A DNA stretch of 64,000 nucleotides from Lunularia cruciata. Taxonomy: Eukaryota > Streptophyta > Marchantiopsida > Lunulariales > Lunulariaceae. Position 1 is the first letter of the stretch, and each line of letters begins with the position of its first letter. The stretch covers positions 57,299,945 to 57,363,944 of the forward strand of contig OX419755.1 in NCBI GenBank assembly GCA_948567375.1, given 5' to 3'. A model generated the notes under the pieces. That model was not told where the DNA came from and ran no database searches. It was given only the letters and a program-made list of their open reading frames with translations. Made by a program: the position numbers and the translations under genes. Shown piece by piece: positions 3,064 to 53,520 of the stretch.

Positions 3064-3067
3064 TTTT

Positions 3068-3085
3068 TGGTTCCGTTGCCGGGAC
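3068..3085 (+). promoter_or_regulatory. Primer-binding site, tRNA-Asp type
   Basis: TGGTTCCGTTGCCGGGAC begins four bases after the LTR. It resembles the plant tRNA-Asp complement (TGGCGCCGTTGCCGGGG) used by many Athila/Tat elements, with a few mismatches. The same site occurs in the other OTA copies (28558, 21336, 47888). Confidence 0.8.
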
Positions 3086-4397: not shown

Positions 4398-4641
4398 TGA
4401 TGGAGATAATCTTTCAACTTATGGATAAACTATCCATGAGAGTTAGATTAATATGCACTCTAGGATTTGATGTTGCTATAGAAATCTTGGAGCAACCTGA
4501 ACCTTTTGTGTTCCCTAGAGTGGATTATTCTCAGATGGTGTTAGTCATGTTTATACTCTATTAGTAATAGAGTGAGAGAAAAAAAAAAGAGGAAAAAATA
4601 AAATAAAATTTGAGAGAAAAGAAAGATAGTGAGGGGTTAAG

Positions 4642-5382: not shown

Positions 5383-5394
5383 GAGAAGAGAGAG

Positions 5395-8300: not shown

Positions 8301-9468
8301 AATGGTGGAGGATATTCTTTTTCACCAAGGAGCAGATGGTCTACTTCAAAGAGCAGTGGGTAAGGAAGAGTCTATCCTACTCATAAAGGAGTTTCATGAA
8401 GGTTTAGTATGTGGAGGACACTTTGCAGGAAAGGTGACTGCTTTCAAGATTCTAGATGCAGGTTACCATTGGAGAGGGATTTTCAAGGATTGTCTTGATT
8501 ATTGCAAAACTTGTCATGTTTGTCAAGCTTTTGCTAGAAAGTCTACATCCACTCCACCACTTAGATCAATTCCATTGCTAGGACCTTTTGAGAAGTGGGG
8601 AATTGATTTTGTAGGACCTCTCAATAGAACCCCAAGGAACAATTGGTACATTGTGGTAGTTACTGATTACCTTACCAAGTGGGTTGAGGCTAGACCATTG
8701 AGGGACAAGAATGAAGATGAAGTGGGTAGATTTCTTTATGAACGCATTATCACTAGGTTTGGATGCCCTTTGGAGTTGGTTTCTGATAGAGGAGGAGAGT
8801 TTACAGGAAGCATTACTACAGCCATGCTACGACATTTCTCTATCACACATAGAGTAACTACATCCTATAAGCCAAATTCCAATGGCTTGGCAGAGAGAAC
8901 CAATCAGACCTTGTGCATGATGTTGGCCAAAGATGCAGAAATGGAGGGGGCTAAACATCATTGGGACAAGAGGATTCATGCAGTTTTGTGGGAGTATAGG
9001 ACAACCATGAAGACTTCCACTGGATATTCTCCATTCCAATTGGTGTATGGTATTGAGTCTACCTTACCTATTCACTTTGATCTTCCTACCTTCCAAAGCA
9101 TTCATAGGAGATTGAAGAAAGCACAAGGAAGTGATGCAGGGAAGTCAAGGAAGGATCAACTCATGGAGTTGGAAGAGTCAAGAGTAGTTGCTATGGTTCG
9201 AGTGGAGCAAGCCCAAAGGAAACAAAAGGAGAGCTATGACAAGAGGCAAGGCAAGAAGAAGGTGGAGCCTTTCAAAGAAGGTGATTGGGTAATGTTGTTT
9301 GATTCCATTCGATTCAAGAGAGTGCAAAAGAAGTTTTTGCCTAAGTACTTTGGACCTTTCATAGTAGAGAAGGTGTGGGGCAATTACACCTATGATCTCA
9401 AGGAGTTGGGAGGAAGACACTTTGATAGGATTAACCATGATAAGTTGAAGATGTACCATAGAAGGTAG
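5395..9468 (+). CDS. pol: pol of OTA element 1 (nucleocapsid-PR-RT-RNaseH-INT)
   Basis: 1357 codons in the same frame as gag, open after the amber at 5380. The first in-frame codons are GAG AAG AGA; no ATG is evident near 5395, so expression would need readthrough or re-initiation. Domains in order: CCHC knuckle (CFGCGGRGHIQRNC), aspartic protease (ALVDGGSA), reverse transcriptase with FIDD active site, RNase H (YTDASN ... TDHKAL ... ADLLSR), and integrase with His/Cys zinc domain and DDE core (IDFVGP, SDRGGEF, LAERTN), ending with a GPF-type C-terminus. There is no chromodomain. All catalytic residues I can check are present, so apart from the amber the element looks functional. Confidence 0.9.
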   Translation: MDQNVGRGPRSYGNHPYRGGQPANNFNDRNCFGCGGRGHIQRNCPNSTYHGGRGYEGANRGKEGGSETQVAANPNKGKGIASIDVVESKYEKGECSNSKGLNLELLAQEKKRARFAEDVHSSQGFTSSKDTPMSTRSTCTSTPSTTKTPRKKLGMEDFLISKQQWNYNVLEDVGSHKANITVGLLIALNPTLRKELRGGLSSTRSKKKKKAKVPVSMGVVDAKPAPWEACEYASKIDVRVNGHNIKDALVDGGSAVNAMSERLMKKLGMIPSRPSTFVVSMANKQQVRPVGVMDKVVVSVMGVQNLMTFQVLKDSSYDLLLGRPWLRAARTTDRWHKGYLRIGPSNHRVTVPVTNTTNTSHSDTPSSNYWESDSEEGASGVDTSMEEETSTEEDESESDSDVYPLCAMDFAPKPEVLKDPDKSPLTLEEVERRLSTLKYGPNVTKEEKVRFEEIFRKFIHVFAFSYKDLKEVTLEEHKIEVESHARPIRQKQRRISPPISLVVKEEIDKLKEAGFIFEVENSEWVSPIVIVKKKNGKLRVCVDYKKLNAVTKKDYYPLPFIDEILEEVAGHERYSFGDGYSGYNQIKIAPEHQQLTTFTTPWGTYAFKVMPFGLCNAPATFQRFMSKVFEPFIGKFVRDFIDDFCVYGSKEEHFEHLIKVLQRLDEANASLNPEKCIFGCEEGLLLGHIISKDGIAVDPEKVRKISDLPFPSSLTKLRQFLGMVGYYRRFIFSFSNKAYALTIYMKKGVDYMVILEDKEALKAFEELKQSLVVAPILAKPDWSKPFILYTDASNVAIGCTLSQLDQDGHDHPIAYASRQMVSAEKNYSVTEREGLAVIFGLKKFRHYLIGGKATIVTDHKALKYIFNKPNVEGRLARWMILLSEYDYTIEDRPRKKHANADLLSRAYDHDGDEPVDDSFPDEELMTISVTQEIPMEYKEIVDFVTRGNYPEGMHARERKALAARSRPYTMVEDILFHQGADGLLQRAVGKEESILLIKEFHEGLVCGGHFAGKVTAFKILDAGYHWRGIFKDCLDYCKTCHVCQAFARKSTSTPPLRSIPLLGPFEKWGIDFVGPLNRTPRNNWYIVVVTDYLTKWVEARPLRDKNEDEVGRFLYERIITRFGCPLELVSDRGGEFTGSITTAMLRHFSITHRVTTSYKPNSNGLAERTNQTLCMMLAKDAEMEGAKHHWDKRIHAVLWEYRTTMKTSTGYSPFQLVYGIESTLPIHFDLPTFQSIHRRLKKAQGSDAGKSRKDQLMELEESRVVAMVRVEQAQRKQKESYDKRQGKKKVEPFKEGDWVMLFDSIRFKRVQKKFLPKYFGPFIVEKVWGNYTYDLKELGGRHFDRINHDKLKMYHRR

Positions 9469-9502
9469 AGAGACCTTCACTCTGAGGACAAAGTGAAAAC
9501 TT

Positions 9503-9516
9503 AGTCCGGGGGTAAA
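9503..9516 (+). promoter_or_regulatory. Polypurine tract of OTA element 1
   Basis: The stretch AGTCCGGGGGTAAA ends directly at the 3' LTR start (9517). It is present at the same place in element 2 and, with one change, in element 3, as expected for the plus-strand primer. Confidence 0.7.
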
Positions 9517-10195
9517 TGTAACACCCATTTGTGCATGTGTGTGGTATTGTGATATTTAGCTTGGTATTACAAGTACTTAAGAGATATTATTTATATAGAG
9601 ATAAAGGATGGTTCTATATTAGTCATGGTTAGCTAAAGTTAGTCATAGCTAAGATAGATGGGACCTTACTTTAGAGGAAGTAGGAAAGATGAGCACCACT
9701 ATTTTGGATTTTAGTGTGTTGACTTGGTATTATTCCTAGGTGTTTGGCTTTGGGGAAAGAGTTGAGAACTCTTGGGCCCGCAAGCCTTTTTGTTTTGGAT
9801 TCTTCTTTAGTCCAAGGATAGCCCATGTGAAGGAATCCTTGCTTTAGTGGTTGGGTCAAGATAAGGGGAATATGCCCATGTGAATGGATATTCCTTTCTA
9901 CTTTTTGACTTTACTTGACTTTTAGTCTAGTAACTTGAGTTACTACGGTAATTAGTAACTTTGGTACGTAACTATTTCACAAGTATATAAACAAGGAGTG
10001 AGGAGGTACTCATCATCCTTTCATTTGCAACTATCTCTCTCTCATTGAGTTCTCTAGTGAGCAATGTCTTGAGTCTTGGAGTGTTAGCCTTGGAGGAGTA
10101 TGATGGAGTTGGGGTTCCTTGCCTTCTTAGTCCATGGTGCGCTACCATAATAGCCATCAGAGGTTCATCCTGAGTGAGAGACAGGCCGGCTCACA
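9517..10195 (+). repeat. 3' LTR of OTA element 1
   Basis: 679 bp, TGTAACACCC to GGCTCACA, nearly identical to 2385-3063. It is followed by GTAC (10196-10199), the second copy of the target duplication. Confidence 0.95.
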
Positions 10196-10199
10196 GTAC

Positions 10200-10825
10200 A
10201 GAAGGAGAAGGAGAAGGAGACGGTGAAAGCCAAGTTCAAAGCGGAATTGGGAATGTATAGGGAGGATTGGCTCGCAGATCGAGAGCAAGAGAGGAAGATG
10301 AGATTGGAGCCATTGAAGGAGATAGTCCTCAGGATGAACGCAATATTGAGTACAGAGGCCAGTGTTCGGATTGAAGAGACGAGGCTGCACGAGTTGAAGC
10401 TATTGGTGTAGGAGACAAGGCAAAGACAAGCGAAAGACACTGATTTGAATGCCTTGTTGATCAGTCTCAAGACTTGTGTAGACAGGAAGATCTTAGAAGT
10501 AGAAGATAATATTGCAATTAGATTAGACTTGGTGAAAATAGAGATAGAAAAACTTTGGAAAGACGTTAGAGCCAAACCCGAAGTAGATAACATAGGAGTG
10601 CAGATGTCTTTTGAGTTAGAGATGGAGACATTCGAGAAGAGTGGGTCGAGAGATGAAGAGTTAGATAGATTACCCACTAGTGCAATTTCAGATCAGGAAA
10701 GAGAATTGTTGGATCTGGTAGAAGAAGTAGAAGATATGAAACCCGAGGAAAGAGTAGTAGGAAGTAAAGTTACTTCAGGTTTGGGTTTGAAAGCCAAGGA
10801 CAAAGTAGACATTGGATTGGAGTAG
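10200..10825 (+). pseudogene. Coiled-coil protein ORF, copy 1, 3' part
   Basis: Continuation of the frame cut at 2384. It matches the minus-strand copy 2 segment 26823-27450. The frame runs through a charged coiled coil, has a stop at about 10408 (TAG where copy 2 has CAG), continues (LEVEDNIAIRLDLVK) and ends at 10825. The C-terminus is acidic. The single stop and those upstream make this copy non-coding today. Confidence 0.7.
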
Positions 10826-11632
10826 TAACAGTTTTGAGATTTGAAGAGGCAGATATGAAGGGTTACATTGTCATATCAGATCTGCAGGTTAGAAGAGTTG
10901 TTGTAGAACGGTATAGTTGTTAGAATTGTCAATTGCTTCACTATTTAAGAGTGGCATTTGTAGAGAATTGTTGTTCAGTGCTCATTATTTTTGAGAATAG
11001 ATAAAGCGAAGTGCTGTGAAGCAGTGCTCGTTGCTTGAGCTTGATTCCAAGTATCAACTTTGTAATTGTGTTTGTGAGTGTGTGAAGAAATTCAAAGTGC
11101 AAGTCATTGTGCTTGTTGGATGTTGGATTCCACAACCTTGATCTTCATTCTATGTGTTTGATCCTGAGTGAAGTGCAATCAAAGCAATGCCTTGACAGAT
11201 CTGAGAGGAATTGTAGTGTTGGTAGTATTTTGCATTTGTGAGTGCAATGCAAAGTTGATGTGAAGCAATTTTGATTGAGGAAGTTGTGCCTTCAGTGGAG
11301 GAGTGGAACACAATTCTGAGGCAAAGTTGTTTTGTAGTGAAGTGCCGTTTTTGGGAGAGCCTAAATCATCACAATCAAGATTGTTTGGAAAGATTTGAAG
11401 GAGTTGTGATTAAGGAGTGTGAATTTGTGACAAGACTGCGAGTCAGTGCTTGTTACTCTCTTCTGGGTGTGGTTTCTACCTGAGAGACTAAAGAAGAACT
11501 CAAGAAGAACTACAGAAGAACTACATTGTTACTGTTTGACTTTGTATTTGGACATTTCTAACTTGTATCTTTGCAGGAACAAAATTTACTTACCCGATTA
11601 CCGCAAAAGTGATATTTGCCGGGTTGTCACAG

Positions 11633-12370
11633 TGCCCTAGCCGACTGGTCCACCCTCACTTGTTGTCTTGGTGACTGTGCCACTCTTATCTATACACTTG
11701 TAGCTTTGGCTAGGAGAGGCAATTTGATCCAATTCTTGGTGATCCTGGTAGCTTAGGACTTAGATACAAACTTCTCTTATGTCAAATGCCAAATGGTGGC
11801 AAAGTTAGTCCTGTGTTGTTTTATGAGATGGAGGGTTTTTGTTTAGATTTCTTGTGAGTGGACCCCTCCATTCTTTGCTTCTTATTTGTGCACCATGTTT
11901 GTGTGAGGTGCCTTGACTTTTGAGCATTGGTGCTCATGTGTGCTCTTGGTAGTGAGGCTAGAGTGATGACTAGTCAGACTACCTTTGTTTCTCTCCGGTG
12001 AGGCAGGAAGTGATGACTACAGACCGTGAGAGTGCGTGTTGTGATGGCAAGTTATAGGTTGCCCTTTCCCCTAGTGTAGTTATCTCGGTTAGAGTTACAT
12101 TAGTGGGTGGTGCTTAGTTGGTGTTGGCACTTGGTGGAGTACTTGCGGTTGCAGTTTGTGGTTCAAGTTTGTTGTTGCAGTTTGCGATTGTGGTTACTTT
12201 GTCACTATGAAGTTCTTTGGGGATTCCAAGGAGATAGCCCTACAATACGCAAAGGGTTCACTCGGAGTGGTACTCGGTATCAGCCTGTATCTCAGGTCCT
12301 AGTGAGAGAGGAGATTGACTTTGAGTTGGAGTTTGACACAAGAGTTGATTAAGTTGAGAGTGCACTTGGT
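11633..12370. other. Gene-free stretch upstream of the methyltransferase retroelement gag
   Basis: Starts directly after the coiled-coil element end. It has no convincing coding frame. It is probably the 5' leader and/or LTR of the decayed retroelement that follows, but I found no matching repeat after its 3' end, so LTRs could not be defined. Confidence 0.4.
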
Positions 12371-13545
12371 GTGTCTGCACCGTTGTTGTGGGACATGGAA
12401 AAGATTTATGGGGCCTCCAAAGGCCTTAAGCATTACTCTAGTACAGTGGGTACCATTGAGTTGGATGACTTCATCCAAGAGTTTGATAGTTGGTGTGATC
12501 TGCAGCAGATGTGGAACCTGACTTTGTTTACACCTTTCATGGCATGGAAGGGGTTGTTTCAGTATTTGGAGGGTCCACTGATGGATGACTACCATGAGTT
12601 CAAGAGAGCTCATTTGGAGGAGATAGAGTTATGGAGACAATATTGGTCTCCAAACTATGTCTCTATCACTTCATGTTTGGTGGCCAAGAGTAGATTGGTA
12701 GTACCTACAAGTTCTAGCTCAAGTAGTGTTGGTGGAGCTAGTGGAGGTGCACTAGCTAGATATAGTGTTACCACGAGTGGAGGTACCACTGCAGGAGGTG
12801 GTGTGGTACCAAGATTTAACCCCATGGTGAAGTTATTCCAGTGTTTGAGGTAGAACTACCAAGGAGTGCGACTGACAAGTTGAGGAGCTTACAGGAGTTC
12901 TAGCGGAAGGCTAGAGAGAGTCTACACAAGGCATACACTTGCATGAGGCGGCTGATCAGTTTCACTCAGGGAGTTAATGAGGCCCAGGCAGTCCAATTTT
13001 GGTATAAGATACTAGACAGGGAGTTGCAATGTAGAGTTTGTGATGCTATGTTGTTAAAGGCTACTTTGCCTACTTTGGTAGTGGTCTTTGGTTTGGCTGA
13101 GCATATTGAGCTCAACATGGTGGAGGAGAGGGTGATGACATCTGGATTTGGTAGGGAGACCTCATCCACGGTTGTGACTTCTTCTAGAGTGCAACAAAGT
13201 GCACCACGCCCAATTGGTTTTTGAGGACATGGTGGACAGCCTAGATCCTATGGAGTGAGTGGAGGGCCTCGTGGAGTTAGATCCTTACCTTCATTTTTGG
13301 GTCAATAGCAGCCAATGAGTGGTGGTGTTACTTGTTGGACTTATGGTGGACCTCACCATTGGAGAGAGTGTACTCAAGGTAGTGGACCTGATACCTCGGG
13401 TGCATCACAGCCAGCACAGAGGCAGTGTGAGCATTGCCACAAATTTGGTCACACTAATGACCGGTGTTTTGACCTACATCCGGAGTTACAAAGTGGTAGG
13501 GCTGATATGGCGAGTAGTAGAGGAGCTCCAATTCATGGAGAATGA
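12371..13545 (+). pseudogene. gag: gag remnant with two CCHC knuckles
   Basis: Three open segments (12371-12853, 12943-13224, 13315-13545) separated by stops and shifts. The first resembles a capsid-like domain (IELDDFIQEFDSWCDLQQMW). The last has a damaged knuckle at 13333 (C-W-T-Y..H....C; the second Cys has become Tyr) and an intact one at 13426 (CEHCHKFGHTNDRC). The order and spacing fit gag nucleocapsid just before protease. Confidence 0.65.
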
Positions 13546-13638
13546 GGTGGTAGAGGTGGTAGTAGAGGATCTACACCTAGTAGGAGTGTAGTACCTGCCC
13601 TTACTTCTGATATAGCTATAGCTACTCGGATTGAGCAA

Positions 13639-14640
13639 TTGGAGCAAAGTATGGTTATTGCTCAAAGGAGATCAGATTCAGGTGCTGAGGCTTCCACCTC
13701 ATATGCTGGTGATAGAGATGCTTTGGACTTCATGTGTGGAGCAACACAATTGGACGCATCTACAGCAATGACTAGGAGTGCAATACGTGCTCTAGAGCCT
13801 AGAGGAGCATCAGTGGAGTTGGACCCACAGAGAGGAGAGGTTGGGAGACTGGTCAGACTTCCCCAGTCTTTCACACTATCTAAGGCATTATAGACGACAT
13901 CCATGGTTCCTAGACATCCTATTGCAGGTGTGGTAGGTGGTGATGGAGTATATGATGGACTACCTGCTACTATGTAGACTGAGTCTAGCACAATGTTGGG
14001 AGCGGCTCAACTGATTATGCGGTGCCCTTTGTTTTCGACCAATGACATGTTTACATTGGGAGTTGATGTAGCTCCAATGTTCTGGTTGGCTGCCACACTG
14101 TGCAAGAGTAGGGATGATGCGGTTCCTACTACTAAAGTAGAGGTGGTTGGTAGTGGAGCTGACTTGGTTGAGGAGCATGGGATCCGTTCAGCAACCATTG
14201 GAATATGGCAAGCAGCAGCGACTAGACTGGAAGAGTTGCTAGCTAGACCAGCCTTTGAGAGAGTGCGGTTCACACCTGGTGTTGTCTTTTTGGATAACCA
14301 AAGGGGGATTTTCTGTTTGGTGGGACCTTCAGGGAAGGTTCATACACCACAAAAAGTCTTGTTAGACTTTGGTGCGCAACCCTTTATGTTGGAGAAGGCT
14401 CCAATTGTCGATATGGAGTTACAAAAGACCAATGTGAAGAGGTGTCCATTTCAGATCCAAACATCTCTAGGTAGTGGTTCAACACAATACATCACACGTG
14501 GGGAGCTTGTTGTCCAGGTTCAGCTTGGTCATCCGATTGATAGCTCAATAGTGAGAGCTCAGGCTATTGCAACAATAGCTTAGTCATATGATGTGCTAGT
14601 TGGGGGAGCAGTGTTATACCCCATGGGTTTCAACATTGAC
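13639..14640 (+). pseudogene. Protease region remnant
   Basis: The frame 13993-14583 ends with a retropepsin-like fold signature: LLDFGAQP around 14359-14382 in place of the usual D-S/T-G-A loop, and after one stop (14581) YDVLVGGAVLYPMGF, which looks like the second hydrophobic strand (the usual I-L-G motif). The upstream part (13639-13893) is of unknown role. Weaker than the other domain calls. Confidence 0.5.
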
Positions 14641-15060
14641 TATTGGGAGGAGAGAACCTCCTATAGACCAGGTTGGTAGCTTGGTGAGGGACAAGTATGT
14701 CGCCTACTTGTATGCTTTAGTAGTGGTAGTCTTGGCTCACTACAATCCGGGACCATGGCAACATCAATTTTAGCTTTCAGTGGTGCAATTACTTGGCTTG
14801 GTGACTTGTTGGAGGGGAACGCCCATGCAGAGGATACTCCAATACCAAAGGAGATCACTCAGATTTGGAGTATGAGTGGGATTGTTCCATCTACCTTGGA
14901 TGTTCCATTGTGGAGTTCAGAGGAGGCGTTGTAGTAGCATGCAGATCAATTGGTGCAATAGGCTTGGAGTGGAGCCTTTGTACTATCAAGAGATGAGTGT
15001 GAGGATGAGCCTCTAGAGTCAATTACTTTGACACCTCTGGATACCACACTCATTGCTTGG

Positions 15061-16050
15061 CAATATCCAGTAGAGAGGATATGTCTATTGGAGTTGTTCG
15101 GTGGGATTAGCACCAGACTAGCTGCGGTATTATAGATAAGTATACGAGCACAAAGGTGCTTGTATGTAGAGAGAGATGAGACTGCTAGGCGAGTCTCTCT
15201 ACATCATGTGGCACACTTGGCCTATTGATATCCGGAGTTATTACCGATGTCAATAGCCAGAGGTTACCAGAAGGCCCTACCAATAGACATTTCCTTACTG
15301 GGGGCACATGATCTGGAGAGACATGGGCCTATTCACTTGGTGATTTTTGGATGGCCATGTTAGGGACATACACATGCTAGTAGAGGTTTGGGTCTTCAAG
15401 ATCCTTGTTCTGGTGTTTTGGGAGATGTTACGGATACTACAACATCTCCAGGTTTATTAATCCGTTTCTCCAACTTACCTTTTGGAGAACGTTCCTTTGA
15501 TGGGTGATTCTTGCACCAGAGTGGTGGCGAGTACACATCAGGTCAATTCCTAGATGGGACCTGCTATATTGTTAGATGCATTTAGAGTAAGAAGACGGAC
15601 TCATTGTCTTTGTCTTTGGTGGACAAACCTCTTACCCAGAGAGGTTTTACAGCGTGCTAATGATAGGATTTAGCAACTTGACCACATCCTTGTTGATGAT
15701 ATCTTGGATGTTGGGCATCAGTCTCAGACAATGGTAGTGGCTGATTGGTCACCTATGGTAGTGGTGAACCTAGTTGGACATCCTAGAGCCGCATTTCCCA
15801 CACTCATGAGTTTCCAAGGCTCTCATGCTTTTCAAGAGGGAGGACTTAGACTTGTTTGGGACTCACAGTGACAACTATTGGTGGAGCCCAACATTGATGA
15901 GAGAGAGAGCGGGCAATGGGTTTTTGCACCGTATTATCACTATTCTAGCAATGTCAAAAGCATCCAAGCATCAGGTGTTAGGTCAGGCTATGGACCTGAA
16001 CTGTTTGACCTAGATTGTGAGCCTTGGCTTGGCAGAGCAGCGTAGTATGT
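15061..16050 (+). pseudogene. Cytosine-5 DNA methyltransferase domain inside the retroelement polyprotein
   Basis: Read across stops and one frameshift near 15420, this region shows C5-methyltransferase motifs in canonical order. Motif I is CLLELFGGISTRLAAVL at 15082-15132 (S-adenosylmethionine site). Motif IV is HLVIFGWPC at 15334-15360, with the catalytic Pro-Cys followed by TAG where Gln is usual, then GHTHASRGLGLQDP. Motif VI is ENVP at 15485-15496. A motif VIII-like stretch is RRRTHCLCLWWTNL at about 15586-15630. Motifs IX-X run from LMRERAGNGF to VLGQAMDLN at about 15890-16010. The order I-IV-VI-VIII-X excludes the circularly permuted DRM type; it is closer to DNMT3 or other canonical enzymes. 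It lies between protease and reverse transcriptase. The family methylates cytosine in DNA; this copy is inactive. Confidence 0.78.
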
Positions 16051-16570
16051 GCTTGATAGGCATCACCACTTGGACACTTGTGACCCCTATGCCTATCAAG
16101 ACAATTTAGGCGCATGCTAGGGGCAATGGACCAAGTGGGCATGGTATTCTTGGGACACAACCAGTAGCTACTAGGGAGAGTGGTCTACTTGGAGCCCATC
16201 CAAGTAAGCATGGGCTACTTGGATTACACCCTTGGTCCACATGGGATGCAGCTAGATGACTTGTGGAGCTTGGAGCCAGAGTGGAGAGAGTTTTTCACAC
16301 AGAGGTTGGGACCTCTAGTGGTTGGGAGCATGACACTATTGCTCCCAAGGGCCCAATGTAGTAGCCAATCAATACGTCTTCCACTCCTACTACAATAACA
16401 AGTTACAGAGGATACTTGGGAGCCAGATCTTGGACCCAATCTTACTAGTGAGGAAAGATGGAGGGTTTGGAGGTTCTTGAGGAGCCACACGAGTTGTTTT
16501 GCCTTCAATATGAAGGATTTTGGTGCTATGAAGGGACCTAGTATAAAGATTGAGCTGACTAGCAATACAC
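16051..16570 (+). other. Linker between methyltransferase and reverse transcriptase
   Basis: Short open pieces with stops. Toward the end a frame reads WEPDLGPNLTSEERWRVWRF and then leads into the reverse transcriptase (RPYQYSEMERTMI). No separate gene recognised. Confidence 0.45.
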
Positions 16571-17460
16571 TATTTTTCTGACGTCCTTATCAATATAGTG
16601 AGATGGAGAGGACAATGATTCAGAGCTAGAGTAGTGAGCTTTTTGAGGCTTGTTTGGTGGAGATTTCACATGGAGAGTATGCATCAGCGACAATGATGCC
16701 CGCCAAGAGAGATATGCATGGCAACTACACAGATAGGCGGATGTGTGGAGATTACCGTCCTATCAACCGATAGACCAGGGCTTATTGGTATGGCATGCCT
16801 ACATCGGAGGAGATTTTTGATGCAACTGGGCATGCAAAGGTTTTTAGTGCTTTGGATCTTTGAGCGGGATATCATCAGTTGCCGATCAAGGAGGAGGATA
16901 AGTCCAAGACAACATTTTGGGCTATTGATCCTCACGGCAAGGATGTGTTATATTAGTGGAGGTTCTTACCGTTCGGGTTAAAGAATGCTCCTGCTGAGTT
17001 CCAATGGATAGGATCCTAGCTGGATTGGATTTTGCTCAGTGCTATATTGATGAGATTTTGGTCTATATCACTATTGTGGAGGAGCATGAGAGACAGTTGT
17101 TGGAGGTGTTTGAGAGGTTGAGATCTCATGGACTCAAATTACATCTTGGGAAGTGTAGGTTCTTCCACAAGCAGGTTGAGTATTTGGGTCACACTATCTT
17201 CCCCGGAGGACTTGGTATTCAGCAAACCAAGGTAGAGGTTATTACATGTATTCCTCGGCCTACGGATGTGAGCAGAGTGCAAGCATTTCTTGGGTTGGTG
17301 AACTTCTATTGCTGCTATGTTAGAGGATTTAGTGCCATTGCCAAGGCCTTGACGAAGCTGACCAAGCTTACACAAGAGTGGTGTTGGGGAGATGAGCAAG
17401 AGAGAGCTTTTGTAGAGCTCAAGGAGAGGTTGACATCTGCTCCTATTTTAAGGAGACCGA
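16570..17460 (+). pseudogene. Reverse transcriptase remnant
   Basis: Typical Ty3 reverse transcriptase blocks across stops: GEYASATMMPAKRDMHGNY, MCGDYRPINR, VFSALDL-AGYHQLP, WRFLPFGLKNAPAEFQ. The open stretch 17004-17471 carries the catalytic loop as YIDE (normally YxDD) and ends LGLVNFYCCYVRGFS. The Asp-to-Glu change and several stops show inactivity. Confidence 0.85.
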
Positions 17461-17469
17461 TCAAAGGAT

Positions 17470-17860
17470 GACCATTTCAAGTTCATACTGATTGGAGTGT
17501 GTTGGGGCTTGGAGTGGTGCTCACCTAGCATGATGATGAGGGGAAGGAGTTTGTAGTGGCCTATGCTAGTCTCTCCAACAATTCAGCGGAGGCAAAGTAT
17601 AGTTCATATGAGGGAGAGTGCTTGGCAACAGTTTGGGCAGTAACACATTTTCGATGTTACCTATTTGGTAACCCCTTCACTCTCATCATTGATCATCAGC
17701 CACTGAAGTGGTTGATGGAGTCCGACAAGCTTTCAAGGAAACTTGCACAATGGGCTCTGATTTCATAGGAGTATGATTTCATAGTTATTCATAGACCTGG
17801 AGTGGTGAACCGTGATGCAGATGGGTTGAGTAGAAACCCATGTCCTAGCCAGCAGGATCA
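17470..17860 (+). pseudogene. RNase H remnant
   Basis: Reads FQVHTDWSVLGLGVVL, GECLATVWAVTHFRCYL, IIDHQPLKWLM and NRDADGLSRNP, the four acidic-residue blocks of Ty3 RNase H, with stops at about 17529 and 17767. Confidence 0.82.
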
Positions 17861-17999
17861 GACCGGAGCATGTTGGCATGGTGAGAAAGATGAGGAGATG
17901 GTGCCAGGTTGGCATGCATCTACCTTTCTATGTATATTTTCTAAGGCTTTGGTGGTATCTCTCTCAGCACATATAGGAGGGATTGAGGTCACAGATCCA

Positions 18000-19230
18000 G
18001 AGAGTGAAGATATTGGTACAATTCAGCAAGACATTCATGATGATGTCTTAGTGATAGACTATCTTTGCACTGGTGTTGTGGGTGGCACAGTTGGGGCCAA
18101 GGAAAGAGACCGTGTTCTTCAGCAAGCCCGATGGTTCAGATTGGAGGGCGGACACCTTTTGCATGTATGGGAGGATGGTGGAGTGTGAGTTGTACCACTT
18201 CCATCTCAGAGACCAGAGTTGGTCCGCTATGCTCATGAGGAGCTAGGACATTTTGGAGTCAAGCGTACATATAGCTTACTCCAGAGGAACTATTGGTGGC
18301 ACGGTATGCAGACCGAGATATAGTAGTTTGTTGCTAGATGTGTGGTTTGTGACCAAGTTAGAGCATCATTCAATGCTCCTATACCACAATTACACCCATT
18401 ACCTATCATGGCATTGGGTTACCGTTGGATTTTGGACTGCGCTAGACCTTTACCGCTGACTGTGAGACATCAAAGTGTTTTGGTGATGGTGGAGCACTTC
18501 TCCAAGTAGATTGAGTTGGTGGCACTTCTTGATAAGTCTAGTGAAGGGACAACTTACTCGTTCTTGGATTGAGTTCTTAGTCATTTTGGTACACCAGCTG
18601 ATGTTTTGACTTATCAAGGTATGGAGTTCTTGGGAGAGTTTCAAGTCTTGTGTGACAAGGCTTCGATTGATCACCGTACTACCTCCCAAGATCAGATGAG
18701 GCAAATGCTTAGCAGAGAGAGTGGTTCAGATGGTGAAGAGAGGATTGCAAAAGTATGGTTTGCAGAGAGGCCACTTGGGAGATTGGGATCTCAAGTTACC
18801 TTGGTTGGCCATGGGCTATCGGTTCAGCCGGCAAGGCTCCTTAGCATCCTTCTCTCCGTACTTTCTACTCTATGGACGAGATCCAGATTTACTTGTAGCC
18901 ATTCGTTGAGATGCTATTGTAGTTTTGGACTTGGATGACCCCAATGTATGGATGAGCGCATGTTCTTTGTGGGCAAAGATCTTTTGGAGAGTGATGCTGA
19001 TAGCCTTTGAGAACTTGGTGATTGCTCAGCATAGAGATACTTTACGCTATGCTACCATTTGAGGAGGAGGTTATAGACCCTTGATCCCTTGATTCATCCA
19101 AGAGACTATGTATATCTACAACAGACAACACCAACAACACTTGATGTTTTGATAGACCGCACTTTCTTGAGAGTGCATGAGGTTTTGCCATCTAGAGTCC
19201 TTGTGTTAGATGGACGTGATGGTGTTGTTT
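18000..19230 (+). pseudogene. Integrase remnant
   Basis: His/Cys zinc domain near 18235-18350 (HEELGHFGVKRTY ... CVVCDQV). A degraded catalytic core follows: first Asp in WILDCARPLP, second Asp mutated (LTYQGMEFLGEFQ), and the third acidic region shifted around 18690. Behind it is a C-terminal beta domain with the GDxVxL-like motif RDYVYLQQTTPTTLDV at about 19104 and VWKDHVPNCAPCHLPN. The protein then continues without a break into the PHD finger. Confidence 0.75.
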
Positions 19231-19325
19231 GGAAGGATCATGTGCCCAATTGTGCACCATGCCACCTCCCAAACATTGATGGTACTATGGACCCAAGCTT
19301 GGCACTTGTACTTGCATGCTTGAGG

Positions 19326-19460
19326 TGTATGTTATGTGGTTCTTCTGGTGGAGTTGCTACTATGTTAGTGTGTGATAGCTGTTCAAGAGGATGGCATATG
19401 GCATGTATTACTCCTCCCCTCATGGTGGTTCCTTAGGGACAGTGGTTATGTCCTAGATGT
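19326..19460 (+). pseudogene. PHD-finger domain at the C-terminus of Pol
   Basis: Cys/His pattern C4-H-C3 in the expected order: Cys codons at 19326 and 19335, 19371 and 19380, His at 19395, Cys at 19404, and after CITPPL and one TAG (19434) the W-L-C-P-R-C pair at 19449 and 19458. Spacing C-x2-C-x11-C-x2-C-x4-H-x2-C-x14-C-x2-C and the Trp before the last pair are classic PHD features. PHD fingers read histone H3 tails, so it may have served integration targeting, as chromodomains do in chromoviruses. Confidence 0.82.
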
Positions 19461-19730
19461 ACTTGACCTATAGCTAGTTCATTCTTTATATGGTATAGAT
19501 TGCAGACATGCAATTAATGATGGGGCTCCATAGCACCCGGCCTCCTAATCTTTGTCCATTATAGGGTATACCATATACTTAGAGTAGATGGCTATCTGGA
19601 GTTAGAGGGACCCAACCGCCAGCTAGGGAGGCAATTGTGGCACTTTAGAGTCTATGTATGACTTGTGTGTGAGTCATGCTTCTAGTGTATGATGTTGACA
19701 ATGATGTAATGTTGTGTAGAAATGTATATA

Positions 19731-20230
19731 CTCACTCTTGATCTTTGAAAGATCAAACCTTCCCTAAAACCCAAGATCCTAACTCCTTTGGGACAACTAT
19801 TGAGAGGCATGGGATATCATTGTGACATTTCAAAATGCCGTTGGTGAAATCTCAATCTTATAATTTTTTGCTGATTGGTCATTCTTCAATTGATCTTCAA
19901 TTGACATGCCAATTTTGGGTGTCTATGTTTTGTCACTCTAAATGTAATCTTGATACCGAGGTAGTCACTTTCTTTACATGTACTTTCTTGATTAGCTAGA
20001 CCAGAGGAAAAGTTGTCATAGGTTCTTTGGATTGGGTTGTGCATCCCAATATGAAGTCCTCTTACTTCAGGTCCATACTTCCATAAGTCTGACCCAAGTC
20101 TTTTTGACTCTAACCCGAGGTTGGCTTCTTTGGGTTTATGCCAAACACATAATTCTTCTCTTTTTCTTCTTCATTAAACATCAATGCGCTTCAAAAATAC
20201 ACTTCTTTGTTAAAACTTATCAAAACCAAA
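19731..20230. other. Gene-free stretch between retroelement remnants
   Basis: AT-rich sequence with no recognisable domain. It probably includes the 3' tail of the copy 1 element and the 5' part of the element whose gag knuckles follow. Confidence 0.4.
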
Positions 20231-20259: not shown

Positions 20260-20643
20260 GACCAAATGTATGGTATATTGCATGTGGCAAGTCGGGTCAT
20301 GCCAACACTAAATGCTTGACAATTTGTTGAACCCAATCAATTTTTTGCATTTCCAATGCAACAAATTGACTGGGTTCCAAGTTGGGACCAAAATAAGGAA
20401 GAAGAGGTAGTGTACCAAACTCAAGAGGACAACCTCAAGCAAGTACCTCTTATCAAGATCCGAGGTTTTGACCACAAAAATACACCAACAATTATCCCCA
20501 ACAAAAAATCAATAGGGAATCAATATAGGCCTCAAAATGCATGTTACAATTGTGGCTTGATAGGCCATTGGTTCCCAAATTGTCCTAAGCCAAGGTGGCA
20601 GATTGAGTATGTTCCACTTTGTGGAAACTATAAGGGTTTGGCA
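20260..20643 (+). pseudogene. gag: gag nucleocapsid with multiple CCHC knuckles, split by OTA element 3
   Basis: One degraded knuckle (YIACGKSGHANTKC, first Cys now Tyr, near 20273), an intact one (CYNCGLIGHWFPNCP, near 20550), and the first half of a third (CGNYKGL, near 20620) that is completed at 44617 (GHVGNQCP). The frame 20356-20640 is open. The gag does not resemble that of copy 1. It may belong to the second methyltransferase retroelement copy, whose remnant follows at 45 kb, or to a different element abutting it. Confidence 0.65.
20640..20643. repeat. Probable target duplication GGCA (left) of OTA element 3
   Basis: GGCA precedes the LTR; GGCC (44617-44620) follows the 3' LTR, a 3-of-4 match. 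The gag knuckle reads through when the element is removed, which supports the boundary. Confidence 0.7.
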
Positions 20644-21331
20644 TGTAACACCCATTTGTGCATGTGTGTGGTCTTGTGATATTTAGCTTGGTATTACTAG
20701 TACTTGAGAGATATTATTTATATAGAGATAAAGGATGGTTCTATATTAGTCATGTTAGCTAAAGTTAGTCATAGCTAAGATAGAGGGTACCTTACTTTAG
20801 AGGAAGTAGAAAAGATGAGCACCACTATTTTGGATTTAAGTGTGTTGACTTGGTATTATTCCTAGGTGTTTGGCTTTGAGGAAAGAGTTGAGAACTCTTG
20901 GGCCCGCAAGCCTTTTTGTTTTGGATTCTTCTTTAGTCCAAGGATAGCCCATGTGAAGGAATCCTTGACTTAGTGGTTGGGTCAAGATAAGACCACATGC
21001 TTAGGGGAATATGCCCATGTGAATGGATATTCCTTTCTACTTTTTGACTTCACTTGACTTTTAGCCTAGTAACTTGAGTTATTCTAGTAATTAGTAACTT
21101 TGGTGCATAACTATTTCACAAGTATATAAACAAGGGACAAGGTAGTACTCATCATCCTTTCATTTGTAACTATCTCTCTCATTGAATTCTCTAATGAGCA
21201 ATGTCTTGAGTCTTGGAGTGTTAGCCTTGGAGGAGTATGATGGAGTTAGGATCCTTGCCTTCTAAGTCCATGGTGCGCTACCATAATAGCCATCAAAGGT
21301 TCATCTTGAGTGAGAGATAGGCTGGCTAACA
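20644..21331 (+). repeat. 5' LTR of OTA element 3
   Basis: About 688 bp, TGTAACACCC to GGCTAACA, with the older 13-base block (GACCACATGCTTA) at about 20990. Confidence 0.92.
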
Positions 21332-21911
21332 TTTTTGGTTCTATTGCCGAGACCTCTCTAGGAGGCAAGATAATGTTCTGTGTTCAATTCTACATTAGGA
21401 AAAAGGAGGCTATGAGAGCTCACTTGGAGAGAACATTGGGAGAGGAGAGTGTTGAACTTATGTTGGACCTTCTTCACCAAGATTGGGAGGGAGAAGATCT
21501 AAGACCAAGGAGTTGTGTGAGGTTTGTGGAGTTGAAGGACTTCCAAAAAGACATGAGTGTAGTGGAGTAAAAGCACTTTTGGAGACTTTGGTGAAGGATC
21601 TTGGAGAGAGTCTTAGTACAGCTACAGAAATACTACCACCTTCATCAACTAGTTCTCAAGATTACTGTGGAGATAATCTTTCAACTTATGGATAAACTAT
21701 CCACGAGAGTAAGATTAATATTCACTCTAGAATTTTATGTTGCTATAGAAATCTTGGAGCAACCTGAACCTTTTGTGTTCCCTAGAGTGGATTATTCTCA
21801 GATGATGTTAGTCATGTATATACTCTATTAGTTATAGAGTGAGAGAAAAAAAGAAGAAAAAAAAGAAGAAAAAAAATATTTGAGAGAAAAGAAAGATATT
21901 GAGGGGTTAAG

Positions 21912-24839
21912 ATGGGTAAACTTCCTCTTTTCTTTGGCAAGGATGGAGAAGATGTGGAGGCCTTTGTGAGAGACTTCAAGAGAGCTTGCATAGGAAACAA
22001 TGAGAGGAGGAAGAATGAGTGGGCCTCATTATTACCAGATTTCTTTGAAGATGCAACACTTACATGGTATGAGTTAGAATACCAAAAGAGAGAAGAGAGA
22101 TGGGCAAGAAGAGTCTTAGGAGACTTTGACTTTAGCACTCATTGAGAACTTTCCCCTAATGAGATTTATGAGAGATTGATGAGTGAGGTTACCTTTCTCA
22201 AGCAAGGAGATGGAGAGAAAGTGAGGGTCTATGTGGAAAGAGTGGAAAAGTTAGAGTTTAGATTTTGCATAGTGTTGAGGAAGTATGGAGATGATGTGGA
22301 GACTACTATAATTGGCATAGGGGCCATGTTCACCAAGATTTTTGTGGGAGGATTGAGACCACAAATAAGAAGCAAGGTGAGATATGAGAAACTTTCTTCC
22401 GAGGTTGAAGTTATCAAGATCGCAATTCATATGGAGGAGAGTTTGGAAGGAGTTGAGAGTGATTTGGTGGTGAGGGAGGTTGTGCATCCTCCTCAAGGCT
22501 ACAAGTATGGTGAAACTTCTGATACTTTGGTGGCAAGGGTTGCACCACAAGTAGTAGTTGCTCCAATTCTTGCACCTCCACCAAAGGATCCACTTCAAAC
22601 CATCACAGAACAACTTGCAGATCTCAAGATCAATGTGGTGCAACAATGGGAGAAGAGAGAGGTGGATCAGAATGTAGGGAGAGGGTCTAGGAGTTATGAA
22701 AACTATCCATATAGAGGAGGCCAACCAGCCAACAATTTCAATGATAGAAATTGTTTTGGTTGTGGAAGAAGAGGCCATATCCAAAGGAATTGCCCAAATT
22801 CCACTTACCATAGAGGAAGGGGTTATGAGGCAGCCAATAGAGGGAAAGAGGGAGGTAGTGAAACCCAAGTGGCTCCTAATCCAAAAAAAGGTAAGGGGAT
22901 AGCATCCATAGATATAGTTGAGAGTAAGTATGAGAAGGGAGAGTGCTCAAACTCCAAGGGTCTTAATTTGAAGCTTTTGGCACAAGAGAAGAAGAGAGCT
23001 CGTTTTGTAGAGGATGTTCACTCTTCTCAAGGATTTACTCCAAGCAAGGATACTCTTATGTCTACTAGGAGCACTCGCACCTCAACACCATCAACAACAA
23101 AGACTCCAAGGAAGAATATGGGGATGGAGGACATCTTGATCTCAAAGCAACAATGGAACTACAATGTGTTGGAGGATGTTGGTAGTCACAAGGCTAACAT
23201 CACAATGGGCCAATTGATTGCTATGAACCCTACCTTGAGAAAGGAGCTTAGAGGTGGTTTGAGTTCTACATGGAGCAAGAGGAAGAAGAAGGAAAAAGCT
23301 CCAGTATCAATGGGAGTGGTGAATGCCAAGCCAGCACCATGGGAGGCTTGTGAATATGCCTCCAAGATTGATGTGAGAGTGAATGGTCACAACATCAAGG
23401 ATGCATTGGTTGATAGAGGATCAGCAATAAATGCCATGTCAAAAAGGTTGATGAAGAAGTTGGGTATGATACCCTCAAGACCTTTAACATTTGTGGTGAG
23501 CATGGCAAACAAGAAACAAGTTTGACCAATAGGGGTGATGGATAAAGTGGTAGTTTTAGTTATGGGAGTTCAAAATCTCATGACTTTCCAAGCCTTGAAG
23601 GATTCAAGCTATGACTTACTTCTTGGGAGGCCATGGTTGAGAGCATCACACACAACTGATCAATGGCACAAAGGGTACTTGAGGATTGGGCCATCAAACC
23701 ATAGAGTCACAGTTCCTTTGACTAACACCACCAACACTTGACATTTAGATACACCATCTTCTGATTATTGGGAATCAGATTTTGAAGAAGGAGCTTCAAG
23801 TGTGGACACAAGCACGGAAAAGGAGACTTCCATGGAGGAGGATGAATCTGAATCTGATTCAGATGTGTATCCTTTGTGAGCTATGGATTTTGCACCTAAG
23901 CAAGATGTTTTGAAGGAACCAGATAAATCACCATTGACACTTGAGGAGGTAGAGAGAAGGTTATCTACCCTCAAGTATGGCCCAAATGTAACCAAGAAGG
24001 AGACGGTGAGATTTGAGTAGATTTTTTGCAAGTTCATCCATGTGTTTGCTTTTAGTTACAAGGATTTGAAGGAAGTGACCTTGGAGGAGCACAAGATAGA
24101 GGTGGAGTCACATGCAAGACCAATCTGCTAAAAGCAACGTCGCATTAGCCCACCAATATCTTTGGTTGTGAAGGAGGAGATTTATAAGCTCAAGGAGGCC
24201 GGATTTATCTTTGAGGTAGAGAATTCAGAATAGGTGTCTGCAATTGTCATTGTGAAGAAAAAGAATGGCAAGCTTTGGGTATGTGTGGATTATAAGAAGC
24301 TCAATGCTATTACCAAGAAGGACTACTACCCATTGTTATTCATTGATGAGATCTTGGAGGAGGTTGCAGGTCATGAGAGGTATAGTTTTGGAGATGGTTA
24401 TAATGGATATAACCAAATCAAGATTGCACCAGAGCATCAACAACTCACCACATTCACCACACCTTGGGGAACTTACGCTTTCAAGGTCATGCCTTTTGGG
24501 CTTTGCAATGCTCCAACCACATTCCAACAGTTCTTGAACAAGGTATTTGAACCTTTCATTGGGAAATTTGTGAGAGACTTCATTGATGACTTTTGTGTCT
24601 CTAGGAGCAAGGAGGAGCACTTTGAACACCTAATCAAGGTCTTGCAATGCTTGGATGAGGCAAATGCATCACTCAACCTCGAGAAGTGCATTTTTGGATG
24701 TGAAGAAGGTCTACTTTTGGAGCACATCATCTCCAAGGATGGAATAGCAGTTGATCCTAAGAAGGTGAGGAAAATCTCAGACTTTCCATTCCCTTCAAGC
24801 TTGACAAAGTTACGCCAATTCTTGGGGATGGTTGGATAT
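21912..24839 (+). pseudogene. gag-pol of OTA element 3, first part
   Basis: Starts with ATG at 21912 (MGKLPLFFGKDGEDVEAF) and follows the element 2 polyprotein through gag, CCHC knuckle (CFGCGRRGHIQRNC), protease and reverse transcriptase (FIDDFCVSRSKEE) to LGMVGY. A shift near 22100 and stops at 22143, 23523, 23738, 23878, 24018, 24128 and 24230 break it. It is cut by the chromovirus at 24839 and resumes at 41995. Confidence 0.88.
24835..24839. repeat. Target duplication GATAT of the chromovirus (left)
   Basis: GATAT at 24835-24839 and at 41990-41994 flank the chromovirus LTR pair. Removing the insert and one copy restores the sequence encoding GMVGYYRRF of OTA element 3. Confidence 0.9.
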
Positions 24840-27870: not shown

Positions 27871-27874
27871 GGAC
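27871..27874. repeat. Target duplication GGAC of OTA element 2 (left)
   Basis: GGAC at 27871-27874 and 35676-35679. One copy retained restores the coiled-coil frame. Confidence 0.93.
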
Positions 27875-28553: not shown

Positions 28554-28557
28554 TTTT

Positions 28558-28575
28558 TGGTTCCGTTGCCGGGAC
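28558..28575 (+). promoter_or_regulatory. Primer-binding site, tRNA-Asp type (element 2)
   Basis: TGGTTCCGTTGCCGGGAC, four bases after the LTR; same as in element 1. Confidence 0.8.
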
Positions 28576-34948: not shown

Positions 34949-34983
34949 AGAGACCTTCACTTTGAGGACAAAGTGAAAACTTA

Positions 34984-41989: not shown

Positions 41990-41994
41990 GATAT

Positions 41995-44616: not shown

Positions 44617-46600
44617 GGCCATGTTGGTAATCAATGTCCTCAACCACCCAACCCAAAGCTTCCTTTGAAGTATGTGCAGGCTATGGCTAAGCAAACTACA
44701 CTACAGCCAAAAGGCAACACCATAGTGATTGTATTACCCTTGATGAAGAAATTCCTCACGGACCAAGTCTGACCTCAAAGTGGAATGGTTGGACCTTGAT
44801 GTGTTAAGAATTGAGACACTCTGTAGGAAGACAAAGCGTGATCCCAAAGAAGTAAGCACTACTTCTTTGTCTTCAAGAAAGGCAAAGATACTTTGCCCTA
44901 AGTCTATCTTATCTGCAAAAGAGTAGAAATTTTGGCTCAAGCCAAGGCAAAGGCATTGCAAAAAGAAACCCAAGAGGTAGTGCAGAGAACTCAAGAAATG
45001 AGTTTCATAGATAGGTTGGTACATCAGACTTGGAGTAGAGCCTTTGTACCACCAATGGACCAATTTGATAATGATCTTCTAGATTTTATTACATTATTTC
45101 TTTTTGATTCCACACTCATTACTTGGCAATACCTAACAATGGAACTATGCTTATTGGAGCTATTTGGTAGGATTAGCACTAGTCTAGCTCTAGTATTGCA
45201 AACAAGCAAGCATATAAGTTCATAAGTACTTGTATGTGAAGAAAGATGTGATTGCTAAATGAGTCTCTTTGCATCATATAACATACTTAGCATATCAACA
45301 CCCTAATCTATTACCAATGTTAGTAGTCAAGGTTTACTAGAAGACATTACTATTAGACATTTCCTTACTAGGATTGCAAGGCTTGAGAAACATGGCACCA
45401 TCCATATAGTGATTTCCAAATGGCTATGTAAGAAATATACATATATTAGCCAAGGTTAAGGTTTGTAAGATCTTTATTTTGGCATGTTTTGGGATATGCT
45501 ATGTATATTTGCCACCTCCAAGTTCATCAAGTAGTTTCTCCAACATATGTTTTGGAGACCATCCCTTTGATAGGTGACTTGCACATGGGTGATGGCATTA
45601 AGAAATATCAATCCTTGTACAATCATGGAGGGCTCTGTTGGCAGATCCTCTCCATAAGGAGACTCTCATTTCCAACCTCCATGTTGCCCTTTTTTAGTGA
45701 AAGCCAATGAAGGGAGGGTTGGTGCCGCTTTTCACCTATCAAGTTGAAAGCGTTTAAAAATTGATTGTTTGATGTGGCTAGAAGTGGATATTGTGCCATT
45801 TTTTACATCTTTGGTGGACAAATGTCTTAGCTAAAGTGGTATTATAACTTGCTTTTGATTGTATTCAACAATCAACACATCTTACTGTGGAGAGTATTAT
45901 GGATGTTGGGTACTAGTCTTAGATGGTGAGAGTGGTTGAAGGAGTTGTATATTGAAGGATTTGGGTGCTTTGAAGGGACATTGGCTTCAAATTGAGTTGA
46001 CTAGTAGTAAACCAATGATATAAAGAGTGTCTTGATTTGAAGTGGGAGTTAAGATTTATTTGAGGTTGATTTAGTAGAGGCTTCCCATAGAGAATATGCT
46101 TTTACTAAATTGATGCCAAACAAGAGAAATACGCATAGCAACTACATTGATATGTGGATGTATGAAGATAACTATCACATCAACCAACAAACCAAGGGTA
46201 ATTGGTATGTTATACCTAAACCAAAGTTGATATTTTATGTGAAATGGCATACAAAGGTCTTTGTAACTTTGAATCTTCAAGGAGGTTAATATGATTGCCA
46301 ATAAAGGAGTAAGACAAAGCCAACATAACATTCTATGCAATTGATCCTCATAGTAAGATGTACCATATCATTGGTAGTTCTAACCTTTTGGGTTAAAGAA
46401 TGCTCCTATTGAGTTCCAAAGAGTCATGACAAAATTCTAACACATTTGGAATTTTCTTAATGTTATATTGATTATAGTTTTGTCTACAATGATATCATAG
46501 AAGAACATAAGAGAAATTTGTTGGAAGGTGAGATATTTAGATCTCATATACTCAAATTACATCCTAAGAAGTGCAAGTCTTTAAACAACAAGTTTAGTAC
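44617..46600 (+). pseudogene. Second, highly decayed methyltransferase-type retroelement (5' portion)
   Basis: 44617-44650 completes the split gag knuckle (GHVGNQCP). From about 45020 the sequence follows copy 1 from 14947 onward: SRAFVPPMD, motif I as CLLELFGRISTSLALVL near 45147, motif IV reduced to VISKWLC near 45405-45440, motif VI as ETIPLIGD near 45555. Reverse transcriptase remnants run from about 46090 (GEYAFTKLMPNKRN, CYIDY). The protease region between knuckle and methyltransferase is much shorter than in copy 1. Cut at 46600 by coiled-coil copy 3. Confidence 0.65.
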
Positions 46601-52400: not shown

Positions 52401-52449
52401 GTGTAGATTACATGGTGATTTTGGAGGACAAGGAGGCTCTCAAAGCTTT
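49403..52449 (+). pseudogene. gag-pol remnant of OTA element 5
   Basis: ATG 49403 (MGKLLVFFSKDGEDVEAF), a shift near 49590, then open 49506-50567 (knuckle damaged: FFGCGRRGHIQRNC, first Cys now Phe), a short extra sequence and shift near 50565, protease loop VNGKSGVNA in place of VDGGSAVNA, stops and shifts at 51023, 51090, 51423 and 51785, and reverse transcriptase (FIDDFCVYGNKEE) to 52382. Inactive. Confidence 0.87.
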
Positions 52450-53520
52450 AGGTCTTGTGTGCCAAGACATTCATTGATCACCAAACTATATCTCAAGATC
52501 ATCTTAAGGTAGATGGTTTAGCAAATAATTTTGTAAAGATGGTGAAGAGAGCATTAAGTAAGTATGGTTTGCAAAGACCTACTTTGGAGATTGTGAACTC
52601 CAATTACTTTGGTTAGCTATGGGATGTCAATTTAGCCAAGAAGCATCCTTGCATCCTTCTCTCCCATTTTACTTCTACATGAGTGAGATCCGTATTTGCA
52701 TGTACCCATCCATTATGACTATATTGCAACTCTGGACTTAGATGACATGGATATATGGATGAGCGCATGTTCTCTACAAGAAGATATTTTTCAAAGAGTG
52801 ATACCAATGGGTTTTGAGAACTCAACAATTGCTTAACACAACAATACCTTATGTTATGATATTATTTGAGGGGGGACTGTAGACCCTCAACCCACCAGTT
52901 TCATCTTGGTAATTTTGTGTATTTCCAATAGATTGCACCGATGACTCTTAATGGGGCAATAGGCCACAATATGGTTTTTCCTTTTGGAGTCTTTATATTG
53001 AAATAACATGATGGTGTCATTTGGAAGGATAGTGTGTGCAATTGTGCACCATACCAACTCCCAAACATTGATGGCATGATAGACCTAAGTTTGTCAATTG
53101 TACACACAAGCTTGCAGTACATGTTACGTGGCTCTATTAATATCTTATTACGTTCATGTGTGATAGCTGTTCAAGAGTATTGCATTGGCATGTTTGACAT
53201 CTTCCTTCACAGTGGTTCCTTAAGGATAATGGCTATGTTCTTGGTGTACTTGACATTTTAGCTAGTCATTCTTTATACCATATAGATTGTAGAATGGCAA
53301 TTAATGTTAGGGCACCATAGGACAAAATTTCATGATCTTTGCGCCACCATATGTTATACCACATATTTAGAATAGATGGCTATTTGGAACTAGAGGGGTA
53401 ATTGTGACACTTGAGAGTTTGTGTACTACCTCTTATATGAGTTGTGCTTTTATAGTATATGATGATGAAAACAATATATGTTTGTGTAGTGATGTATATA
53501 TGTATGAGAGATGAGTGGAT
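52450..53520 (+). pseudogene. Second methyltransferase-type retroelement (3' portion: integrase and PHD remnant)
   Basis: Follows copy 1 from about 18646 to 19730: integrase core end (near 52550, KRALSKYGLQRPTL), C-terminal part (CNCAPYQLPNIDGMIDLSL near 53037-53090) and a degraded PHD finger (53100-53250, with VCDSCSR recoverable after a shift). The ~1.45 kb of reverse transcriptase, RNase H and integrase between 46600 and 52450 is missing. Confidence 0.65.

Follow-up and report, generated by a model that had tools for sequence, protein, structure and literature searches.

The window, a stretch of 64,000 nucleotides from contig OX419755.1 of the liverwort Lunularia cruciata, contains a decayed copy of a Ty3/gypsy-type element in which the remnant of a Dnmt3-type cytosine-5 (C5) DNA methyltransferase lies between a protease-like region and a reverse transcriptase (RT), together with two parts of a second, older relic. 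The features are as follows, all on the forward strand:

11632..19735, +, decayed element copy, from the 5′ leader to the end of B1 (~90% identity to loci L009-L018 over 8.1 kb)
12353..13500, +, gag remnant (tblastn with P0001; two CCHC-like knuckles seen by eye)
14250..14650, +, protease-like region (homology; LLDFGA in the window versus LLDSGA in L009)
15061..16050, +, remnant of the Dnmt3-type C5-methyltransferase (tblastn with P0001 and translations; motifs I-X in canonical order)
16359..16367, +, junction stop TAG TAG CCA (42 of 45 rows have TAG CAG CCA, the TMV-type UAG CAR YYA context)
16582..17840, +, remnant of Ty3-type RT and RNase H (tblastn with P0001)
18190..18760, +, integrase remnant (rve in the intact relative; tblastn)
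19326..19463, +, PHD finger at the C-terminus of the integrase protein (PF00628, E 1.5e-6 in window 19077-19436)
19634..19735, +, B1 repeat, the last element part present in the window (88% to B1 and B2 of L052)
45009..46599, +, second, older relic, first part: end of protease-methyltransferase and start of RT (~70% DNA identity)
52428..53513, +, second relic, remainder: integrase, PHD remnant and B repeat

With an intact relative as guide, the domain order of the window copy was gag, protease-like region, C5-methyltransferase, RT, RNase H, integrase and PHD finger. Comparison of boundaries with other copies revealed that the window copy lacks repeat A1, the start of the leader, and repeats A2 and B2. 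Pfam matched RVT_1 in the window itself (16998-17471, E 6e-12). Retrotrans_gag reached only E 0.2 in the intact relative, under the family cut-off, and the protease generated no Pfam match in the liverwort element family; an aspartyl protease match was obtained in the relative P0022.

The identity of this stretch as a methyltransferase element is near certain. The sequence-only reading had proposed a C5-methyltransferase with a protease upstream and a Ty3 RT downstream on the same strand. The enzyme was borne out by homology to intact relatives carrying a DNA_methylase domain, its neighbours were found as described (the protease by homology), and motifs I (LLELFGG), IV (GWPC), VI (ENVP), IX (ERER) and X (VLGQAMDLN) were confirmed in canonical order in the translations. 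The Pfam search proposed along with it gave no methyltransferase match for any of six stop-free pieces of 15061-15868 (a seventh, of 19 residues, was too short), because the copy is broken into fragments of 24-65 residues. By the letter, this is one of the outcomes that the sequence-only reading had said would refute it; the domain was identified from intact relatives instead. P0001 (1428 aa), from the same genome, matched Pfam DNA_methylase with E 3.4e-7, passing the curated cut-off, and aligned to the window in tblastn with 83% identity over 12871-15420, 68% over 15413-16030 and 78% over 15900-16358. The enzyme in the window has a stop directly after GWPC, frame shifts near 15413 and near 15900, and an altered motif VIII (THCLCLWWTN versus AHRLRLWWTN in L010) in which the arginines are lost, and therefore cannot be active. 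Its place inside a Ty3/gypsy element, between protease and RT, also stood, the enzyme being in the same frame as gag and the protease region and upstream of RT; the earlier architecture did not show that the element has a PHD finger and split terminal repeats, or that the UAG is conserved.

The two parts of the second relic (45009-53513) are separated by other repeats, and their CpG observed/expected ratio was 0.11. A 7.8-kb gypsy-bearing stretch without a methyltransferase occurs twice in the window (2383-10200 and 27873-35680, 25.5 kb apart, 99.2% identity), each time bounded by 679-base repeats that are 99.6-99.9% identical, and pieces of it appear again at 20643-24835, 41992-44618 and 47185-52449. 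The segments 9516-10195 and 20643-21331 were considered as LTRs of the methyltransferase element and rejected, since they recur elsewhere in the window with the different gypsy and are neither A nor B repeats.

The layout of the family is A1 - gag - protease - Dnmt3-type methyltransferase - UAG - RT - RNase H - integrase - PHD finger - B1 - A2 - B2. The enzyme had been described as something that the family once carried; its carriage is not merely past, as some copies keep a single 1428-codon frame that joins gag, the protease region and the enzyme, and a 38-base motif IV pattern (up to 3 mismatches) matched 1524 + 1572 = 3096 places in 566 Mb, the reversed pattern used as control matching nowhere in the same 566 Mb. 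With a full copy of ~9.9 kb by arithmetic, the family total is ~30 Mb at most, as an upper bound, and the enzyme region of many copies is interrupted by stops. Among the copies compared, L009-L018 were chosen for long open frames out of 123 rows, and L019-L048 were the best 30 of 120 rows, those being the best of 13637 candidates; L010 and L019 are the same copy, as are L018 and L037, so that 44 loci represent 42 copies.

Repeat structure was inspected at both sides in four copies, and all four had the order A-coding-B-A-B, with A1 shortened in one. Three carried A1 (~450 bp) at the 5′ side and B1 (107 bp), A2 (~450 bp) and B2 (107 bp) at the 3′ side, while the fourth, L010, retained 77 bp of A1 adjoining an internal deletion. 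The repeats are thus split, and the two equal terminal LTRs of classical LTR retrotransposons are absent. Identity between A1 and A2 was 97.3, 99.1 and 88.2% in the three complete copies, and the copies therefore differ in age. The termini are TGTCACG...CGACA, i.e. TG...CA, and 4-bp target duplications (AACC, GAGG and TAGC) were seen by eye in three of the four copies, the oldest having none. The B1-A2 join reads CGACA-GC-TGTCACG in 3 of 4 copies (L049-L056); it resembles joined element ends and may hint at how split-repeat integrase elements replicate. No standard tRNA primer-binding site was seen beside A1 by eye. No tyrosine recombinase was present among the Pfam matches of P0001 and P0002 (E up to 1), the integrase being of the rve type, and no chromodomain among those of P0002 (E up to 1), where PHD was present. 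Both PHD and chromodomain were listed for P0117, a distant relative.

The gag-side and RT-side frames are the same reading frame with one stop between them. This stop is UAG in all 44 loci and in the window, and the three rows that deviate from the common context read TAG CAG CCT, TAG CAG CTA and, in the window, TAG TAG CCA. Across the genome, TAG was found at 708 of 724 places with the exact flanking bases; the exceptions include TAA and TTG among the first ones listed. For tobacco mosaic virus (TMV) RNA, a UAG with CAR YYA after it is reported to be indispensable for readthrough, and plants do read through that stop (PMC2754532). From this context we infer readthrough of the element UAG. In relatives with the same layout from Marchantia and ENA contigs (P0003, P0004, P0015-P0017 and P0019-P0022), the protein ends ~60-115 residues past the enzyme, as would be expected if the split is old. 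The gene models of six relatives (P0006, P0008, P0011, P0013, P0014 and P0025) continue into RT or integrase, reflecting either splicing by the model or a missing stop. The UAG context and the split repeats were established within this liverwort genome, Marchantia and environmental relatives being compared as proteins.

As to the class of the enzyme, Pfam, PDB-sequence and fold searches agreed on DNMT3, and the DNMT3 catalytic fold with PC, ENV and RxR is present in the element enzyme; PADLOC and NCBIfam returned general cytosine-methylase models. These comparisons of sequence and predicted fold support a Dnmt3-type DNA methyltransferase for which catalysis is predicted. Two protein searches (52 + 113) yielded 143 relatives, the search that gave 52 having scored 7990 candidates only. 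The relatives came from Marchantia polymorpha, Sphagnum fallax, Monoraphidium neglectum, Cymbomonas tetramitiformis and many environmental sequences. The order RT-RNaseH-enzyme-integrase-PHD was found in 75 of the 143 and a partial version of it, with the enzyme between RNase H and integrase, in 16; seven had the liverwort-type layout, with the enzyme before RT or RNase H. In the others the enzyme stood alone (24), before integrase with no RT seen (13), or after RT/RNase H with no integrase seen (8). P0026, P0048 and 73 others thus carry the enzyme between RNase H and integrase, versus the protease-RT site in the liverwort. Either the domain moved within the element, or it was taken twice from related sources.

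Phylogenetic trees of the enzyme (61 rows) and of RT (31 rows) were built from rows hand-picked from the proteins of the protein searches for relatives and for host DNMT3; for the RT tree, P0120 was left out as too partial. All 37 element rows formed one clade in the enzyme tree (100/100), with each layout on one side of a branch, weakly (75/35 and 86/83). The second layout was a clade in the RT tree (100/99), where two outgroup rows only, both from the window, were available. AU tests rejected a tree in which the liverwort-type elements join plant DNMT3 (p 1.5e-6), but not one in which plant DNMT3 is joined by every element enzyme and DRM stands apart (p 0.51). From these tests, the enzyme is therefore Dnmt3-like and was acquired long ago. 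Recent capture from a liverwort DNMT3 was rejected on the former result. Capture of a DRM gene, which the earlier reading had ruled out from motif order, was dismissed on the same ground: the order in the element is canonical, and the host's own DRM gene (L002) has its halves swapped (VI-X before I-IV).

In the 61-row tree the host DNMT3 gene fell together with Marchantia MpDNMT3b and a relative from Riccia, which points to a complex thalloid liverwort as host; the protein search behind this comparison listed 120 of 1015 matches. Beside this gene (L001) there is another DNMT3-like gene of the host, whose frame looks broken (L004, G000:C1:51667193-51670357). The RT and integrase pieces of P0025 (Sphagnum fallax) share 79-81% identity with the liverwort element, which equals the closeness of Marchantia, and in the tree the P0025 enzyme falls with those of the liverworts. 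Contamination would account for this, as would horizontal transfer between the moss and a liverwort.

The catalytic Cys was conserved in 130 of 133 domains (the other three being gaps), the Glu of ENV in 133/133, and the two Arg of motif VIII in 131/133 and 133/133. The Pro of motif IV before the catalytic Cys is kept in 69 of the 133 domains and replaced by Glu in 56, with Cys retained. Identities to Marchantia relatives were 64-74% for the enzyme, 68-79% for RT, 46-59% for gag and 47-54% for the protease region. Among the 42 copies, singleton variants comprised 87 amino-acid or stop changes versus 50 silent changes, and variants found in at least six copies comprised 5 amino-acid-changing versus 10 silent (p 0.028); when all shared variants were pooled, the counts were 36 versus 35 (p 0.10). 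Taken at the sequence level, purifying selection on the enzyme is likely, not proven.

Traces of methylation were sought in base composition. With the partial copy L017 excluded from the comparison, C had been replaced by T in the window copy at 87 of 313 CG sites (27.8%), 133 of 628 CHG sites (21.2%) and 98 of 2570 CHH sites (3.8%), a decay at CG and CHG that is as expected after CG/CHG methylation in a plant. CpG observed/expected was 0.44-0.47 in the six long-frame loci, 0.35 in the whole window and 0.11-0.13 in the other gypsy, which is one family represented by two near-identical copies. The young copies (the six long-frame loci) thus had no CpG depletion as a trace of self-methylation; source copies either bear no sign of heavy self-methylation or the marks do not last there.

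We consider it reasonably probable that a packaged Dnmt3-type enzyme, a leaky UAG, methylation of cDNA and PHD-steered insertion together explain the element. In this explanation, most ribosomes would halt at the UAG and release a gag-protease-methyltransferase product; from its being the main product we infer that the enzyme would be present in gag-like amounts and packaged, while occasional decoding of the UAG would supply a small amount of RT-integrase. The RNA would begin within A1 and finish within B2, and the internal B1-A2 junction would restore both lost tips. New double-stranded cDNA would be methylated by the enzyme in or near the particle and would arrive at the chromosome with a host-like mark already on it, where the PHD finger of the integrase may bind a histone tail and direct insertion. 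In chromoviruses, chromodomains steer insertion. The copy in the window is dead, and its later losses at CG and CHG sites are those that methylation by the host would bring about.

Several mechanisms compete for the role of the enzyme, and the packaged enzyme with methylation of cDNA is the likeliest of them at a chance little better than even. In a published yeast test, no methylation by the KnitGypsy enzyme could be detected, a result that the authors themselves regard as inconclusive (PMC5890265). An active enzyme with another target (host chromatin, RNA, or competition with host DNMT3-type complexes), disturbing silencing rather than marking cDNA, is rather unlikely: it would fit the conserved catalytic residues, the young copies free of CpG depletion and the gag-like dosage predicted from the UAG, and RNA methylation has been proposed for dinoflagellate LINE enzymes (PMC5890265, in part), but the enzyme has the fold of a DNA methyltransferase. 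That the enzyme is a passenger, now irrelevant to transposition and persisting through the youth of the family, is improbable; stops in the enzyme of many copies and the marginal within-genome signal of selection speak for it, and against it the catalytic residues are kept in nearly all 133 domains across many lineages and the enzyme is conserved about as well as RT relative to Marchantia. We give practically no credence to a host DRM or DNMT3 fragment inserted by chance into one gypsy copy, the separate insertion that the sequence-only reading had named as a finding that would refute it. The host genome does have DNMT3 and DRM genes, but the window is colinear here with all ten long loci compared, relatives have one open frame, Marchantia relatives have the enzyme at the same place, the host DRM is permuted, and the AU test rejects the plant DNMT3 grouping; the insertion is refuted on these grounds.

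Hosts use DNA methylation as a weapon against retrotransposons. How a parasite could benefit from a silencing mark is the question posed by an element that encodes a methyltransferase itself. The gypsy case had so far rested on one charophyte in the literature examined (PMC5890265, in part). We tentatively propose, as a possibility, an ancient chlorophyte and bryophyte clade of split-repeat integrase gypsy elements that would both write (Dnmt3-type) and read (PHD) chromatin, in which the bryophyte enzyme stands before a leaky UAG, reaches a gag-like dose in the particle and causes copies to arrive methylated. If true, the oddity of one charophyte becomes a long-lived retroelement strategy, present even in Marchantia. 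In most distant relatives, the enzyme and RT share one frame, and gag-like dosage is therefore not general. The question can be tested: Marchantia, which harbours relatives of the element, is a tractable model, and in this genome the family occupies thousands of places. Integrase-type ends together with DIRS-type split repeats also pose a replication puzzle. The L. cruciata genome is 581 Mb, a size said to be explained by Ty3/gypsy bursts, to which the methyltransferase family may belong (PMC9985172, in the part available).

Elements of this kind are already known; the liverwort family represents a large land-plant variant, and a model plant harbours relatives of it. KnitGypsy-Dnmt3 of Klebsormidium nitens (de Mendoza et al. 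2018), for which purifying selection was reported, shares with the liverwort family the gypsy domains, a canonical Dnmt3-type enzyme and DIRS-like repeats, compared here by description only from the available text (PMC5890265); A-coding region-B-A-B is the DIRS repeat order and is given for KnitGypsy-Dnmt3 too in the figure legends. Ty3/gypsy RT, RNase H and rve integrase are present in the liverwort family as in KnitGypsy-Dnmt3-type elements, and no K. nitens element sequence was among the relatives from the two protein searches. A possible difference is the place of the enzyme, which in KnitGypsy-Dnmt3 is described as part of the Pol polyprotein, and which in the liverwort family is in the Pol frame but before the UAG, on the gag-protease side. 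The liverwort family also has a PHD finger, PHD being a word absent from the main text of the KnitGypsy-Dnmt3 paper, and it occupies a far larger number of places (PMC5890265, in part). SymbioDIRS-Dnmt3 of dinoflagellates likewise has a Dnmt3-type enzyme in an A-coding-B-A-B retroelement, but carries a tyrosine recombinase where the liverwort family has an rve integrase and target duplications (PMC5890265, in part). A 2025 paper (PMC12344493) cites the 2018 paper, and elements of bryophytes or chlorophytes, a PHD finger and a leaky stop go unreported in the available portions of PMC5890265, PMC12344493, PMC6453930, PMC10952607 and PMC6338049, most subscription papers and all preprints lying outside this scope. 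Compared with animal DNMT3A and DNMT3B, the liverwort enzyme is embedded in a polyprotein, and the sole PHD reader is on the integrase, not beside the enzyme. Chromoviruses are Ty3/gypsy elements with a chromodomain, a histone reader, at the C-terminus of the integrase. The liverwort family resembles them in having a histone-reader-like domain at this position, which here is a PHD finger, not a chromodomain.
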